Assembly (NCBI RefSeq): GCF_028736925.1 | Contig: NZ_JAQZAT010000006.1 | Span: forward strand, 1-64,000 | Reading direction: 5' to 3' | DNA: 64,000 nt | Origin: Flavivirga sp. 57AJ16 | GTDB lineage: Bacteria > Bacteroidota > Bacteroidia > Flavobacteriales > Flavobacteriaceae | Shown: piece after piece, positions 1,480 to 22,900 of the stretch | Position numbering within the stretch: the stretch's first letter is position 1 | Layout of the letters: the number at the start of each line of letters is the position of its first letter | The notes under the pieces: generated by a model | Told to the model about the DNA's origin: nothing | What the model saw: only the letters and a program-made list of their open reading frames with translations | The model's database searches: none | Translations under genes and position numbers: made by a program

Positions 1480-2246
1480 TAAAGCTTTATTTCTTTAAAA
1501 CCTGATGGTATTTTAAATGGAAATCGTAACGCTTCATTTAAGGTAACATTTTTAAACTCTAAACCTATGATCGTTTCTTCATTAGTTTCTAAAGCTATAA
1601 CTTTTATCTTTTCTGGTAGGATCTGTTTTTCAACTTCTTGATATGATAAGTAATCAATCTGCAAATGCCTAAACTCCTTTGGCTGTGATATTTGCTGTGA
1701 CTTGACTTTAAAATGTGATGGGTCCAACAAAAAGAATATTTCAAAAAGTTCACGTTGTCTTTTGGGCTGAAGTATATAAGATCCATCATCAACAGACCCT
1801 TTATAGGTGCCATCTTTTAAATTAAATATAGCTTCTCCCAATAATAAATTTTGAACTTTTTGGAAATCTAGTTCAGTTCCCAATAAATCACTCAAGTATT
1901 TATAATCACCATCAAAATAAGTGTTATCCAGCTTATTATAAAAACTAACTCTTTCTGGTGTCACTAAAGCCTTTACTATCGAAAACGTCGCACTGATCCA
2001 TAAGGCTTCATCTTTTTTCGCTCTAAAGCTTACCGAATGTGTTTGTGAGTCTCCCTTTTGCGTATAGGTTATTTTAAGCGTTGACTTAAGCGTTTTAAAG
2101 TTAGGCGTTCGCTTAGCGTTTTCTTTTATTAATTGTTTTGTAGAAAGATTATAATTCGCGTCTCCTTCAACAATTGTTTTTGATGATTTACAATTAAAGA
2201 CTAATAAGATTAATAAGACTAAATTAAGTTGAGAACGTATTTTCAT
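1479..2246 (-). CDS. DUF4292 family lipoprotein
   Basis: This 255-residue protein starts with a lipoprotein signal whose lipobox ends LVFNC (Cys19). The rest looks like a beta-rich envelope protein resembling LolA/LolB-type carriers, and the whole matches the DUF4292 pattern as I know it from Bacteroidota. Its stop and start codons overlap both neighbours by one base (TAATG), so translation with the TPR gene upstream and EnvC downstream is probably coupled. A role in outer-membrane lipoprotein or murein maintenance is likely from context, but no biochemical function can be read from the sequence. Confidence 0.75.
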   Translation of the reverse strand: MKIRSQLNLVLLILLVFNCKSSKTIVEGDANYNLSTKQLIKENAKRTPNFKTLKSTLKITYTQKGDSQTHSVSFRAKKDEALWISATFSIVKALVTPERVSFYNKLDNTYFDGDYKYLSDLLGTELDFQKVQNLLLGEAIFNLKDGTYKGSVDDGSYILQPKRQRELFEIFFLLDPSHFKVKSQQISQPKEFRHLQIDYLSYQEVEKQILPEKIKVIALETNEETIIGLEFKNVTLNEALRFPFKIPSGFKEIKL

Positions 2247-3607
2247 TAATTCGAACTTTCTAATTGTTTTGCTTTATCACTAAACGTTTTTGCTTTAGCA
2301 GTATTGTTTAATAGGGTGTAGGCCTTACTTAATTGATTGTAAAAATCAATTTCCATTTTAGTATCATCAATAATATAATCTAATCCCGTTTCTAAAGCCT
2401 CAACTGCTTTTTGAGGTTGCTTTAATTGATTTAAAGCAACACCATTTATCAAATAAAATAGGGGCTGAGAGGGATATTTTTGAAGTACTTCACTACTTTT
2501 TTCTTCAGCTAAATGATACTTCTGTAAATCTATATACAGTAATAATACATTTCGTAAGACACCAAAGTTATTTGGCTCTAACTTTAACGCCGCCTCAAAA
2601 TACTCTAAAGCCCGTTTCTTATCCTTTTTAGTTAAATAGTACTGTCCTAACTCAATAAGTGTTTTACTGTTATTATTGTTACCAACCATGGCCGTCGCCT
2701 CCACCAAATCTGCTTCGTATTGTGGGTTATTCCCAACAAACGTTACAAAATCCGTTAATACTTTAAGTTTTGCTTCTGGTTTTATTTCATTGCTTTTAAC
2801 AACAATTTTCATAGATTCAATTGCTTTTTCAGCATCGTTATCATCTAAATAAAATTTATATAGTGCTAAATGAACCAATTGTGAGTTTGGATTTATTTTT
2901 AACAGTTCTTTAGCTGTTTTGAAGGCTTTTGCTTTTTCATTGTTTTCACTGTAACGGAAAATCAAAGCTAAGTAATTAGATTCTTTATCAGGGCGGCTCT
3001 CGATACGCTTTTCAAGGTTTTCTATTTGATCTTTTTTTCGTCCTGTTTCTTCATAAATTTGGTTACGCATCCAATCCCGGGACTTAGAAATCCCAAACTT
3101 TGAATCTAATTCATCTAAAAGCTTTAAAGCCTCGTCATATTTTTTGGATCTAAGATAAAGCGATGCCAAATCTTCTTTATAATCTGGATGGTATTTAACA
3201 AGTTGCTTAACCGTTTTTACGGCTTTATCATAATCGTTTTGCGATGCATAAAACCCATACAGCTCATCTAAAAACCATTCATTATCCGGTTCTTTACCAA
3301 CAGCTTTTTTTAATGCTTCTTCAGCTGCTTCAAAATTTTTAAGCTTATTATAATTTTTACCTAATTCATAATACAAAACTGGCACAGAGCTATCTAATTC
3401 TATACATTTTAAAAGTGATTCAATAGATCTATCGTAATTCTCAATACCTTTTTGTTTTAAAGCCTCATAGAAAAACTCTTGAAATTTGTCTTCTACATCA
3501 CCTAAATCATCATCTGGTTTTTTATTAAAATCTACTTGCGCATAGCTAATCTGAGGAAAGATTAACATGCCTAGAATTAAAAAAAATATGTAGATTTTAT
3601 GTTTCAT
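2246..3607 (-). CDS. Exported TPR-repeat protein
   Basis: The 453-residue protein has a signal peptide (about 1-23, ending ISYAQ). Nearly all the remainder is helical tetratricopeptide-type repeats, with recurrent pairs such as YYELGKNYNKL, LGQYYLTKKD and LINGVALNQL. TPR proteins of this kind act as scaffolds in the periplasm. It is first in the run TPR-DUF4292-EnvC, with a one-base overlap to the next gene. Upstream lie the remnant of a GIY-YIG cassette and an inverted repeat AGTCAC/GTGACT (3679-3684 / 3692-3697), which could be an operator. The partner proteins are unknown. Confidence 0.8.
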   Translation of the reverse strand: MKHKIYIFFLILGMLIFPQISYAQVDFNKKPDDDLGDVEDKFQEFFYEALKQKGIENYDRSIESLLKCIELDSSVPVLYYELGKNYNKLKNFEAAEEALKKAVGKEPDNEWFLDELYGFYASQNDYDKAVKTVKQLVKYHPDYKEDLASLYLRSKKYDEALKLLDELDSKFGISKSRDWMRNQIYEETGRKKDQIENLEKRIESRPDKESNYLALIFRYSENNEKAKAFKTAKELLKINPNSQLVHLALYKFYLDDNDAEKAIESMKIVVKSNEIKPEAKLKVLTDFVTFVGNNPQYEADLVEATAMVGNNNNSKTLIELGQYYLTKKDKKRALEYFEAALKLEPNNFGVLRNVLLLYIDLQKYHLAEEKSSEVLQKYPSQPLFYLINGVALNQLKQPQKAVEALETGLDYIIDDTKMEIDFYNQLSKAYTLLNNTAKAKTFSDKAKQLESSN

Positions 3608-3629
3608 ACAGTGTCTGTGTAGGCAGGTA

Positions 3630-3744
3630 TTATGATTTATTTAAGTTTAAACTTGGATTCATTTCTTCTATATTACTTAGTCACAAATATAGTGACTCGC
3701 TTATGCTTGTTTATCATAACATAGGCATATCAATGTTTATACAT
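3630..3744 (-). pseudogene. Decayed, internally deleted GIY-YIG nuclease gene
   Basis: Read on the minus strand, this stretch keeps the two ends of the intact GIY-YIG gene at 4865-5176 and lacks its middle. The 5' part (3744 downward) gives M-Y-K-H-stop-YAYVMINK, aligning with MKLWYVYIMTNK and carrying an in-frame stop. The 3' part contains IEEMNPS followed by NLNKS and a stop, matching IEEMNPSW...NLNFNK. On the plus strand the 3' parts share the 18-base run CTTGGATTCATTTCTTCT. Hairpin 3756-3775 lies upstream with the same flank (GAGATTCCTGC) as hairpin 5193-5212 of the intact copy, and a degenerate ATACCTGC hairpin (3611-3631) follows the stop. Confidence 0.75.
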
Positions 3745-3755
3745 TTCGCTATGAG

Positions 3756-3775
3756 ATTCCTGCCTTCGCAGGGAT
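3756..3775. repeat. ATTCCTGC hairpin (dispersed family)
   Basis: ATTCCTGC (3756-3763), loop CTTC, GCAGGGAT (3768-3775): eight pairs with one wobble. Its last base is shared with the stop codon of the nucleotidyltransferase gene. No U-run follows on the minus strand, so it is not a standard terminator. Confidence 0.8.
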
Positions 3776-4794
3776 TACTCTAATACCGAATAGTCGCCAA
3801 TGCTTACAGATGTATAATGACCATCATATTTAACATGGTTACCAATCATAGCATCATCTAAATTAGCATTTTTAATTATGGCATTTGTTTGAATTAAGCT
3901 ATTCTTAACACTTGAAGCCTCAATCACACTGTTATCCCCTATAGATACGTAAGGTCCAATCGTACTATCTTTAAGAATCACATTTTCACCAATAAAACAC
4001 GGCTCTATAATAGTCGAATTATTCAATTTTACCGATGCCGATACTAATTGCTCATCGTTATCTGCTTTTAAAAAACCTAGCATTCTTTGATTCGTCTCAA
4101 TGGTTATGGCTTTATTGCCACAGTCCATCCATTCGTCGACGGTTCCTGTTTTAAAAAGGTTCCCTTCGGCCATCATACGTTTAATACCATCATTAATTTG
4201 ATATTCCCCGCCATTCATAATATTTTCATCCAGGATCTCTTGCAACTTTCCTTTTAAAATAGCGACGTCTTTAAAATAATAAATTCCAATAACTGCCTGA
4301 TCGCTCACAAAGGTTTCTGGTTTTTCAACCAACTCAACAATCTCATTATTATCATTTAATTTAACGACCCCATAAGCTTCAGGGTTTTGTACTTGTTTGG
4401 TCCAAATAACACTATCTGCAGTTGCATCTAAATCAAATTCAGCTCTAATTAAGGTATCTGCATATGCAATAACAGCAGGTCCAGATAATGATGGTTTTGC
4501 ACACATAATAGCGTGCCCAGTTCCTAATGGCTGGTCTTGACGATAAATAGAGGCTTTAGCTCCTAAGCTTTTTGCCAAATCCTGTAAACTTGAAACCACA
4601 TCATCACCAAACCAAGCCGGATCTCCTAAAACAAAAGCGATTTCTTCTATAGGTTGCTTTAAAACTTTAGCGATATCTTTTACTAATCTATGAACAATGG
4701 GTTGTCCTGCCACTGGAATAAGTGGTTTCGGTACTGTTAAACTATGTGGGCGTAAACGAGAACCCCGTCCCGCCATTGGTACTATTATTTTCAT
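3775..4794 (-). CDS. Sugar nucleotidyltransferase with left-handed beta-helix tail
   Basis: The 339-residue protein opens with the sugar-1-phosphate nucleotidyltransferase signature MAGRGSRLRPHSLTVPKPL (about 7-25). It continues with a GT-A type core and ends in hexapeptide-like repeats (about 250-339; SVKLNNSTIIEPCFIG, GPYVSIGDNSVI). It should transfer a nucleotidyl group to a sugar 1-phosphate, in the style of GlmU or RfbA; the sugar is not known. I prefer the start at 4794. An in-frame ATG two codons upstream (4800) lies inside a repeat hairpin (4799-4818), and the family normally starts at MKIIVPMAG. The gene is bracketed by two GIY-YIG cassettes, one intact and one decayed. Confidence 0.85.
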   Translation of the reverse strand: MKIIVPMAGRGSRLRPHSLTVPKPLIPVAGQPIVHRLVKDIAKVLKQPIEEIAFVLGDPAWFGDDVVSSLQDLAKSLGAKASIYRQDQPLGTGHAIMCAKPSLSGPAVIAYADTLIRAEFDLDATADSVIWTKQVQNPEAYGVVKLNDNNEIVELVEKPETFVSDQAVIGIYYFKDVAILKGKLQEILDENIMNGGEYQINDGIKRMMAEGNLFKTGTVDEWMDCGNKAITIETNQRMLGFLKADNDEQLVSASVKLNNSTIIEPCFIGENVILKDSTIGPYVSIGDNSVIEASSVKNSLIQTNAIIKNANLDDAMIGNHVKYDGHYTSVSIGDYSVLE

Positions 4795-4798
4795 ATAC

Positions 4799-4818
4799 AT
4801 GCCTGCGTAAGCAGGTAT
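4799..4818. repeat. ATGCCTGC hairpin
   Basis: ATGCCTGC (4799-4806), loop GTAA, GCAGGTAT (4811-4818). It covers the alternative upstream start of the nucleotidyltransferase gene and is one of two hairpins on the 3' side of the GIY-YIG gene. Confidence 0.8.
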
Positions 4819-4836
4819 CTTTTTTGGTTACACTTT

Positions 4837-4856
4837 ATTCCTGTCTGCACAGGAAT
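4837..4856. repeat. ATTCCTGT hairpin
   Basis: A perfect eight-base stem, ATTCCTGT (4837-4844) / ACAGGAAT (4849-4856), with a CTGC loop. It begins eight bases beyond the GIY-YIG stop codon. The T-rich run is on the plus side (CTTATTTTTTAT), opposite to the gene's direction. Confidence 0.8.
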
Positions 4857-4864
4857 CTTATTTT

Positions 4865-5176
4865 TTATCTTAATTTATTAAAATTCAAGTTCCAGTTAGC
4901 ACTAAGATCCGACCAACTTGGATTCATTTCTTCTATTAGATTTATTTTCCATTGCCTTTTCCATTTTTTAAATTGTCTTTCCCTTATTTCAGCTTCAGTT
5001 CCATCTTTATACTCCTCAAAATACATCAATTTATTGCAATTATATCTTGCTGTAAATGATTTAGGATGGATTTTTAGTTTGTGTTCTTTTACTCTTTCTT
5101 CTATATTATCGGTTACTCCTATGTATATAACACCATTGGGTTTATTTGTCATGATGTAGACATACCAGAGTTTCAT
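4865..5176 (-). CDS. Small GIY-YIG nuclease-domain protein
   Basis: The 103-residue protein is a single GIY-YIG domain. The GIY-like strand WYVYIM is followed by VIYIG (16-20). The usual arginine is R28 in ERVKEHK, and the acidic residue lies in AEIRERQFKKW (E64 or E67). It resembles the small UPF0213/YhbQ-type families. Members of this type are common and often multicopy in Flavobacteriaceae, to my knowledge. The gene has hairpins on both sides (5193-5212 upstream, 4837-4856 and 4799-4818 downstream), and a decayed copy with matching hairpins lies 1.2 kb away at 3630-3744. This points to a cassette that moves or is copied as a unit. The nuclease fold is clear; mobility is inference. Confidence 0.85.
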   Translation of the reverse strand: MKLWYVYIMTNKPNGVIYIGVTDNIEERVKEHKLKIHPKSFTARYNCNKLMYFEEYKDGTEAEIRERQFKKWKRQWKINLIEEMNPSWSDLSANWNLNFNKLR

Positions 5177-5192
5177 GCTTTTTTGCTATGAG

Positions 5193-5212
5193 ATTCCTGC
5201 CTTCGCAGGAAT
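5193..5212. repeat. ATTCCTGC hairpin
   Basis: A perfect eight-base stem, ATTCCTGC (5193-5200) / GCAGGAAT (5205-5212), loop CTTC. The flank GCTATGAG is shared with the copy at 3756-3775. Its last base overlaps the dut stop codon, and it marks the 5' edge of the intact GIY-YIG cassette. Confidence 0.8.
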
Positions 5213-5646
5213 TATTTCACCCCAGTACTTCCAAATCCACCTGCTCCTCTCGACGTTTCAGATAGTTCTTCAACAGCAATCCATTCGGCACGTTCATGTT
5301 TTGAAATAACCATTTGTGCAATACGTTCACCATTTTCAATAATAAAATCTTCATTTGAAAGGTTTACCAAAATTACGCCTATTTCTCCTCTATAATCGGC
5401 ATCAATAGTTCCCGGAGCATTTAAAACGGTAATACCTTTTTTTGCTGCCAGCCCACTACGCGGACGCACCTGCGCTTCAAACCCTATGGGCAGCTCAATA
5501 AATAAGCCTGTTTTTACTATGGTGCGCTCTAAAGGCTTTAACGTCATTGCTTCTAAAATATTCGCTCTTAAATCCATACCTGCAGACGCTATAGTCTCAT
5601 AATGTGGTAAAGCATGACTCGATTTATTTATTATTTTTATATCCAT
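5212..5646 (-). CDS. dut: dUTP diphosphatase
   Basis: The enzyme hydrolyses dUTP to dUMP and diphosphate, keeping uracil out of DNA and supplying dUMP for thymidylate synthesis. All five trimeric dUTPase motifs are present in order: SAGMDLRA (21-28), [27 protein letters not shown] and the C-terminal [10 protein letters not shown]. With the start at 5646 (MDIKIINKS) the protein has 144 residues, the usual size. An in-frame ATG at 5688 would add 14 unconserved residues encoded by what looks like repeat-derived sequence. The stop codon touches hairpin 5193-5212. Confidence 0.93.
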
Positions 5647-5740
5647 TCTCATCTTCTGTCTTCCCTTTTCGACTGCCTCCCCGTCCAACAGATGTTCAAG
5701 ACAGGCTCAGGCTCGGAAAGAAACTTATTAGTGATTAATA

Positions 5741-22880: not shown

Positions 22881-22900
22881 ATTCCTGCCTCCGCAGGAAT
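22881..22900. repeat. ATTCCTGC hairpin
   Basis: A perfect eight-base stem ATTCCTGC (22881-22888) / GCAGGAAT (22893-22900), loop CTCC, with the flank ATGAG seen in two other copies. It lies one base from the DUF4254 stop codon, in the spacer before the GT9 gene, with no GIY-YIG gene attached. Confidence 0.8.

Follow-up and report, generated by a model that had tools for sequence, protein, structure and literature searches.

A GIY-YIG nuclease gene between inverted hairpins in Flavivirga: a probable mobile cassette partnered with CGTC-type repeats

Why does a small nuclease gene stand between hairpins, with the wreck of a similar arrangement only one gene away? This question is raised by the first 64,000 nucleotides of contig NZ_JAQZAT010000006.1 of Flavivirga sp. 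57AJ16 (assembly GCF_028736925.1), the whole of which is referred to here as the window, and in which a gene for a 103-residue GIY-YIG nuclease is bounded by hairpins on both sides. In our opinion, the arrangement is probably a mobile cassette, consisting of an inverted hairpin, the nuclease gene and another inverted hairpin, in which the hairpins are CGTC-type repetitive extragenic palindromes (REPs) and the predicted recognition sites of their own nuclease; the cassette is read as the autonomous partner of CGTC REPs. Comparison of sequences supports the unit itself, the cognate pairing of nuclease and hairpin, gain or loss at defined sites, differing neighbourhoods and a series of decay stages; cleavage, strand choice and copying we infer. 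Genomes and loci are designated by G and L numbers, G000 being the genome of the window.

On the minus strand, which carries all window features named here, the order is dut, a hairpin, the GIY-YIG gene, two hairpins, a nucleotidyltransferase gene, a hairpin, a gutted GIY-YIG copy, a degenerate hairpin and a gene for a tetratricopeptide repeat (TPR) protein. The intact nuclease gene occupies positions 4865-5176. Its 5' hairpin (5193-5212; ATTCCTGC GAAG GCAGGAAT) abuts the dut stop codon, and its 3' side carries an inner hairpin (4837-4856; ATTCCTGT GCAG ACAGGAAT) and an outer one (4799-4818; ATACCTGC TTAC GCAGGCAT), all at the positions given in the sequence-only reading of this DNA. The window hairpin has the form ATTCCTGC-N4-GCAGGAAT, i.e., an 8-bp stem with a 4-nt loop. 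The outer hairpin marks the 3' end common to most copies; similar ones terminate L031-L034, L109 and the second copy of G005, and do not terminate L107 or L108. Hairpins similar to the inner one are found in L031 and in L109 (another genus), and the inner hairpin is absent from the second copy of G005 and from the copy of G003.

The second copy in the window was said to have kept both gene ends, lost its middle and acquired an in-frame stop and a degenerate 3' hairpin, and this description is borne out by local alignment of positions 3600-3800 with the intact cassette (score 123; highest of 300 shuffles 60). The copy spans approximately 3602-3777 and is separated from the intact cassette by one gene, that for the nucleotidyltransferase. 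Its 5' hairpin (3756-3775), which is retained with one mismatch, abuts the nucleotidyltransferase stop codon; the gene remnant (3631-3755) comprises about the first 13 codons, with an in-frame TGA (the frame reads MYKH-stop), and the EEMNPS end; the degenerate 3' hairpin (ATACCTGCCTACACAGACAC) lies at 3611-3630. The sister species G005 has a fuller second copy at the same place (G005:C100:38921-39088). At 22881-22900, in a gap between genes, a hairpin of the cassette kind stands alone, again with CTCAT on its inner side. This lone copy is the fifth match in the window to ATTCCTGCNNNNGCAGGAAT at up to three mismatches, where 0.23 matches are expected and none of 100 shuffles reached five.

The protein encoded by the intact gene is a bare GIY-YIG domain (Pfam PF01541, E 2.8e-18), and it has the residues that do not vary among 13 aligned members of the family, including Y7, Y18, G20, R28, H32, E66 and N85. 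Its only Pfam matches at E 0.001 are GIY-YIG and T5orf172, with no Y1/HUH transposase among them; its relatives in the PDB are 1zg2, 1ywl and 1yd6. The unit holds no second gene, and its protein is of the GIY-YIG type, not a DDE transposase. Loci of the family are found in Flavobacteriia, Rhizobiales, a Nitrotoga metagenome-assembled genome (MAG), Candidate Phyla Radiation MAGs, Treponema, Omnitrophota and Neisseria gonorrhoeae, among others; the N. gonorrhoeae relative (L103) is 43% identical over 83% of the query and is flanked by ATTCCCGC hairpins. No match to the family was found among phage records, and 33 of 72,556 plasmid records match, several of which are of chromosome size. The Planktothrix agardhii plasmid NZ_LR882964.1 (L099) has a member of the family with a type IIL restriction-modification gene on one side and drmA, the gene for the DISARM helicase, on the other. 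In Azospirillum lipoferum AZO_p3 (L104), sufB and sufC of the suf operon are separated by a member that bears hairpins.

The first line of evidence for a unit is the association of hairpin and gene across 153 loci, namely 65 loci from 40 relatives (drawn from 66 places, a partial second copy in G005 being omitted), 80 named GTDB loci (the best 80 of at least 565) and 8 plasmid-collection records. Strict hairpins, defined by a stem of 7 bp or more without mismatch, within 150 bp of the gene end, were compared with control windows about 1 kb away. In relatives outside clade B, they occur upstream at 30 of 50 loci (control 3/50) and downstream at 35 of 50 (control 4/50); at the named loci, the corresponding counts are 64/87 and 60/88, with 5/83 in either control, which speaks for a preference of the hairpins for GIY-YIG genes. 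Over all 153 loci, hairpins lie just beyond either gene end in about two thirds of cases, as opposed to 6-8% in control windows. Within a locus, moreover, the stem upstream and the stem downstream match each other (0.869; permuted mean 0.62, maximum 0.698 in 2000 permutations) in 42 non-redundant loci of the 74 that have both hairpins. Protein similarity and stem similarity are correlated as well (Mantel r 0.425; highest of 2000 permutations 0.318). In a tree of 152 of the 153 proteins (one was too short), based on 94 columns and having many weak forks, stem type follows the nuclease clades, with some loci mixed.

Clade B (15 loci) was considered as a hairpin-free negative control and rejected: by the strict test it has hairpins upstream at 1/15 loci and downstream at 0/15, and its genes are often flanked by longer imperfect repeats with a GTCATT start and an AATCT end. 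Longer imperfect flanking repeats, many of them of the GTCATT...AATCT form (e.g., GTCATTCAGAGCGAAGCGAAGAATCT), accompany GIY-YIG genes of other clades at L076, L075, L082-L084, L044, L056, L042, L099 and further loci. Further repeats common in bacteria thus seem to belong to the GIY-YIG enzyme family analysed here.

The hairpins are also oriented. The consensus of 157 distinct CCTG hairpins from the loci then tabulated, TTGTC-ATTCCTGC-GNAG-GCAGGAAT-C(C/T)A, is asymmetric outside the stem, both in the outer flank (T 82%, G 76%, T 85%, C 78%) and in the inner one (C 99%, C/T 98%, A 66%). Within 200 bp upstream of the gene, TGTCAT is found at 77 of 152 loci and ATGACA at 38, and within 200 bp downstream the counts are 32 and 83 of 153, controls giving 6-14 of 147-148. 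Thus, the TGTC side tends to face outward on both sides of the gene. A simpler count of GTCAT and ATGAC, in which the categories overlap, gives moderate support for inverted flanks (inverted at 79/152 loci, the reverse arrangement at 32/152). Close hairpin pairs, less than 500 bp apart and outside arrays, are head-to-head (F-R) in 19 of 25 cases (p 1.3e-7), and in 16 of 22 (p 3.5e-6) when the three pairs flanking nuclease genes are removed; head-to-head pairs are often 46-53 bp apart, forming REPIN-like doublets. These statistics exclude the direct tandem arrays at C5, C9 and C12 and cover 73 of the 92 hairpins of the window's own genome, all 32 of G001, 13 positions of G007 and 9 of G011; the listed positions that were omitted form no pair below 500 bp.

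The second line of evidence is the occurrence of similar cassettes in different neighbourhoods, where gene names (trpB/trpA, cobS-like, lipoamide acyltransferase, thiolase and others) are read from translated open reading frames unless a family search is cited. Cassettes of family K occupy three gene neighbourhoods within one genus, with hairpins at about -43 and at +39 to +59 relative to the gene. BLAST blocks between L040 and three loci of another neighbourhood (L004, L037 and L038), at 82-86% identity, extend from between -47 and -52 to +64/+65, so that similarity runs from about 7 nt past the 5' hairpin to about 5 nt past the 3' hairpin. Blocks that end just outside the hairpins agree with the proposal of the sequence-only reading that the unit copied is hairpin, nuclease gene and hairpin. 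The block that L040 shares with L053 begins at -32, the point at which the hairpin of L053 is disrupted. The window's own subfamily is found in the dut gap (G000, G005, G008, G009, L109 and, as a remnant, G017), after the nucleotidyltransferase gene (G005, G001 and, decayed, G000), between thiolase and aldehyde dehydrogenase genes (G003) and within the start of the lipoamide acyltransferase gene (L107, L108). In G010, on our reading, a cassette of family K points the other way with respect to the same neighbours.

Sites with and without the cassette can be compared directly. Both dut (dUTP diphosphatase; 5212-5688), the upstream neighbour that served for this comparison, and the sugar-1-phosphate nucleotidyltransferase gene between the two copies (3775-4800) lie outside the element; the TPR gene extends from 2246 to 3607. 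The gap between dut and the nucleotidyltransferase gene was followed in 23 genomes (23 of 36 dut places), 5 of which have the nuclease gene or a remnant, 13 have both neighbours and no nuclease gene, and 5 are not syntenic; the smallest gap without the nuclease is 7 bp (G016). Analogously, the trpB/trpA gap, followed in 20 genomes (20 of 23 trpA places), has a cassette in 7, none in 12 and is not resolved in 1, the smallest gap without a cassette being 3 bp (G017). The 7 trpB/trpA cassettes comprise 5 open genes, 1 degraded at full length and 1 that is gutted and retains both hairpins (G008). Sites without the cassette are thus present in relatives, and orthologues at the same place in sister species do, in the main, carry hairpins, which are degenerate in G008. 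Sinorhizobium L102 was considered as a strain-level empty site and rejected, since neither of the two records compared is without the gene. All that varies, as between Ak57 and C101 (L102, L243), is how many hairpin repeat units flank the nuclease gene.

The third line of evidence is the repetition of target sequence. In L108, the start of the lipoamide acyltransferase gene (MSHYEFKMPKLGESITEAA) is interrupted by the cassette, and 43 of 43 bp are repeated after it; the target is present as a single copy, without a cassette, in G000, G003 and G016. L107 has a 42-bp direct repeat, which is less clean, as the repeated stretch includes a hairpin. Further direct repeats outside hairpins are found in L132 (52 bp), L144 (37 bp) and L142 and L160 (25-26 bp). 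A scan of 130 loci gave 15 with a score of at least 17, a level reached by 0.13% of permuted pairs. It should be noted that 19 of 23 loci from two clades that lack strict hairpins are above the 99% threshold of this test; because these clades, with their imperfect repeats, also pass, the score is taken to signify target duplication only for non-dispersed repeats. In a further 25 loci, 16 with hairpins on both sides were compared and 4 score at least 17, no permutation having been made for this set: L274 shows the repeat already counted at L142, L282 shows that of L111, and L286 and L292 have apparent flanking repeat elements. At the lipoamide acyltransferase start of L107 (Winogradskyella vidalii, approximately 2386-2450 and 2820-2860), a CCCAC hairpin stands in frame (RFPLSWELK), and the repeat DNA there seems to code for protein.

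The abundance of hairpins is related to the presence of the nuclease. In the window's genome, which comprises 4.9 Mb in 52 contigs, the nuclease protein has 15 matches at E <=1e-3 and CCTGCNNNNGCAGG has 92 sites, the reversed control giving none. Among 249 genomes of the family, the L144-type nuclease is present in 26, of which 14 have at least 10 hairpins; of the 223 that lack it, 12 do (p 1.8e-9); with the window's genus removed, the only phylogenetic correction made, the counts are 11/23 and 12/223 (p 2.5e-7). At E 1e-30, the L144-type nuclease is present in 24 of 235 genera. Within the window's genome, one contig carries a unit of about 503 bp (hairpin, spacer, hairpin, nuclease) three times in tandem, two of them with a stop codon, and paralogues have hairpins of several types: TTTCCG and CCCTC at L007, between trpB and trpA; CCTGAA on both sides of L005; CCCAC and CCCG at L002.

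Other repeats of the same genome also contain hairpins. Near-identical direct tandem arrays with 153-bp and 246-bp units, one hairpin per unit, are found at L089:1558-2390 (G000:C5, approximately 102.1-102.9 kb) and L090:3823-4517 (G000:C9), and the hairpins in these units may favour tandem duplication. On G000:C10, two 358-bp elements (L087:1816-2172 and L088:1571-1928), 87% identical and in opposite orientation, have TACCGTGAGTACAC-like ends and a hairpin doublet inside each, which looks like another mobile element that has acquired a doublet. These doublets were considered as mini-elements that had themselves moved, an idea that was dropped, since the similarity runs over 358 bp, past the hairpins; both are still included in the pair statistics.

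Several observations weigh against a mobile cassette of CGTC type. The window hairpins are without the TGTC tag in their outer flanks, while the inner flank CTCAT is present at 5193, 3756 and 22881. The control windows are largely coding, and the permutation tests leave shared ancestry in. Between L040 and the third neighbourhood of family K (L039, L041, L043), the similarity blocks end at -2, +82 and +1, and movement within a species was not seen, each species being represented by one genome. As to the direct repeats, 9 of the 15 passing loci are tandem arrays or flanking repeat elements and only 6 remain; L144 and L160, moreover, lie in apparent tandem paralogue clusters, for which a truncated neighbour is an alternative. 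Finally, 12 genomes have at least 10 CCTGC hairpins and no L144-type nuclease, and 10 of these show no cognate nuclease. Of the 12, G054 alone has a member beside a CCTGC hairpin, at most 150 bp away, and G017 has a decayed one in the dut gap; in 9 more, the members present have hairpins of another kind or lack them. At E 1e-15, a member of the family is found in 11 of the 12, G121 having none (24 of 25 member places in the hairpin-rich genomes were covered), and single ATTCCTGC sequences lie within 600 bp of the members of G251 and G193. The repeats seem to outlive their enzyme, or to be served by other enzymes.

Could the hairpins, then, be ordinary terminators, or REPs that stabilise mRNA in operon gaps, and owe their pairing with GIY-YIG genes to abundance and vertical inheritance alone? 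They do lie in gaps between same-strand genes, as a 2013 paper reports for REPs (Di Nocera, De Gregorio and Rocco; PMC3733652); yet the approximately tenfold enrichment over control windows, the matching stems on both sides, the asymmetric consensus and the 19 of 25 pairs that are head-to-head make such an explanation very improbable. We also regard as unlikely a history of homing or hitch-hiking, in which REP hairpins, spread by another mobiliser, preceded the nuclease gene, and this gene, free-standing, inserted into or between them by homing, the flanks being its targets and not the ends of an element. Gene-free gaps with hairpins would suit such a history, both at dut (at least G001, G003, G007, G011 and G024) and at trpB/trpA (G001, G004-G006, G011), as would the finding that one site can be filled in more than one genus (G000 and L109 at dut, G000 and G024 at trp). 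However, the cleanest empty sites are free of hairpins (the 7-bp dut gap of G016, the 3-bp trp gap of G017 and the acyltransferase start of G000, G003 and G016), the repeats of L108 are target sequence outside the hairpins, and the hairpins of empty gaps are often of a class other than that of the cassette.

A somewhat less remote alternative, which we nonetheless doubt, is that the nuclease has a domesticated role, tuning with its sites DNA uptake or recombination, as is said of site-specific single-stranded DNA nucleases (Ssn) in Neisseria; the repeats would then spread through recombination and imported DNA, and the nuclease would not be their mobiliser. The excess of hairpins over nuclease genes in the window's genome (92 sites, 15 protein matches) is in keeping with this, as is the 43% identical N. 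gonorrhoeae relative, whose ATTCCCGC hairpins are of the dRS3 type, i.e., CGTC-1 according to PMC3733652. Patchy presence (24/235 genera), decayed and tandem copies, unit-bounded similarity at different places and target duplications are, on the other side, marks of a selfish element, and a domesticated role and a selfish element can both be true.

How might a mobile cassette of this kind move? GIY-YIG enzymes hydrolyse DNA and are not known to rejoin it, and copying would for this reason have to rely on host replication and repair. The nuclease would nick one strand at its own hairpin in single-stranded DNA (the lagging-strand template, or repair or transformation DNA, as is reportedly the case for Ssn) and would also cut new targets at lower stringency. 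Offset nicks on both strands, followed by host repair with the cassette as template or donor, would leave the unit between duplicated target bases. The varying lengths of the target duplications fit offset nicks with fill-in and speak against a transposase of fixed stagger. Internal deletion may then yield a gutted cassette with both hairpins, of which the second copy in the window and the trp gap of G008 would be examples, subsequently a facing, REPIN-like doublet, and ultimately a solo hairpin. We suggest, tentatively and without leaning on it, that such cassettes form a separate class of bacterial mobile elements: units of about 430 bp whose sole protein is a 100-residue single-strand GIY-YIG nuclease, without transposase, recombinase or polymerase, which insert through offset nicks and repair by the host, leaving long target duplications of variable length (25-52 bp), and which are the autonomous parents of CGTC REPs, including dRS3, in several phyla. 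Mobility in such a cassette would be built on a lone nuclease together with host repair.

Among known systems, GIY-YIG homing endonucleases and the UPF0213 and UvrC N-terminal domains share the fold family (PF01541). Unlike homing endonucleases, the genes described here are flanked by their own inverted hairpins, no intron or intein was seen at them, and their proteins have no room for an extra DNA-binding domain. DDE insertion sequences produce duplications of fixed length, whereas here there is no DDE transposase and the duplications vary from 25 to 52 bp. The likeness to REPs and their RAYT (TnpA-REP) transposases, drawn in the sequence-only reading with a GIY-YIG nuclease in place of the Y1 enzyme, is upheld: a single gene lies between inverted repeats, solo and doublet (REPIN) derivatives reach high copy number, and enzyme and repeat are paired. 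RAYTs differ in being Y1/HUH transposases with a GTAG tag, as opposed to the GIY-YIG fold, the TGTC consensus tag and the target duplications found here; movement of the RAYT/IS200 type is not known to produce target duplications. The nearest relative on the enzyme side is presumably the Ssn family, to which we take the window nuclease to belong: it is a compact GIY-YIG protein with the catalytic residues, it is a homologue of a Neisseria member, L103, and it has its own linked repeat. L103 may be the very gene called ssn. A study of 2025 (Nat Commun) reportedly describes Ssn as small GIY-YIG enzymes with many homologues, each tied to its own repeat (NTS); it is said to concern cleavage of single-stranded DNA and natural transformation, and is not known to treat a mobile cassette with target duplications.

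A literature search, whose reach did not include the Ssn paper, found neither the cassette as a moving unit, nor its target duplications, nor a GIY-YIG enzyme as partner of CGTC REPs; the word nuclease is absent, by text search, from PMC12306157 and PMC5896051. For the cassette as a whole, the suggestion that it is undescribed is not supported, the nuclease very probably being an Ssn and the hairpins fitting a known class of repeats. CGTC REPs were defined in PMC3733652 from five phyla, including Bacteroidetes, with neisserial dRS3 equated with CGTC-1 and rickettsial RPE-4 and RPE-6 included; they were reported near gene ends. According to that paper, they apparently have no dedicated transposase, no transposase gene flanked by CGTC repeats was found, and the mobiliser is left open. 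Their stems of 8-9 bp beginning with AT and loops of 4-5 nt are matched by the window hairpins (8 bp and 4 nt), and their arrangement, mostly as head-to-head dimers, by the hairpin pairs found here; a CGTC/TGTC tag on one side and a CCA-like tail on the other (PMC3733652) fit the CCTG consensus and not the window hairpins, which are without the tag and have CTCAT as inner flank. The difference is that here a GIY-YIG nuclease gene lies between two head-to-head copies, with the stem type tracking the nuclease clade. The cassette thus offers a mobiliser for repeats reported in 2013 without one, and it predicts a pairing of nuclease and repeat. The repeat class is known and the enzyme family probably so; what is probably new is the link between them, together with the evidence for a moving cassette.

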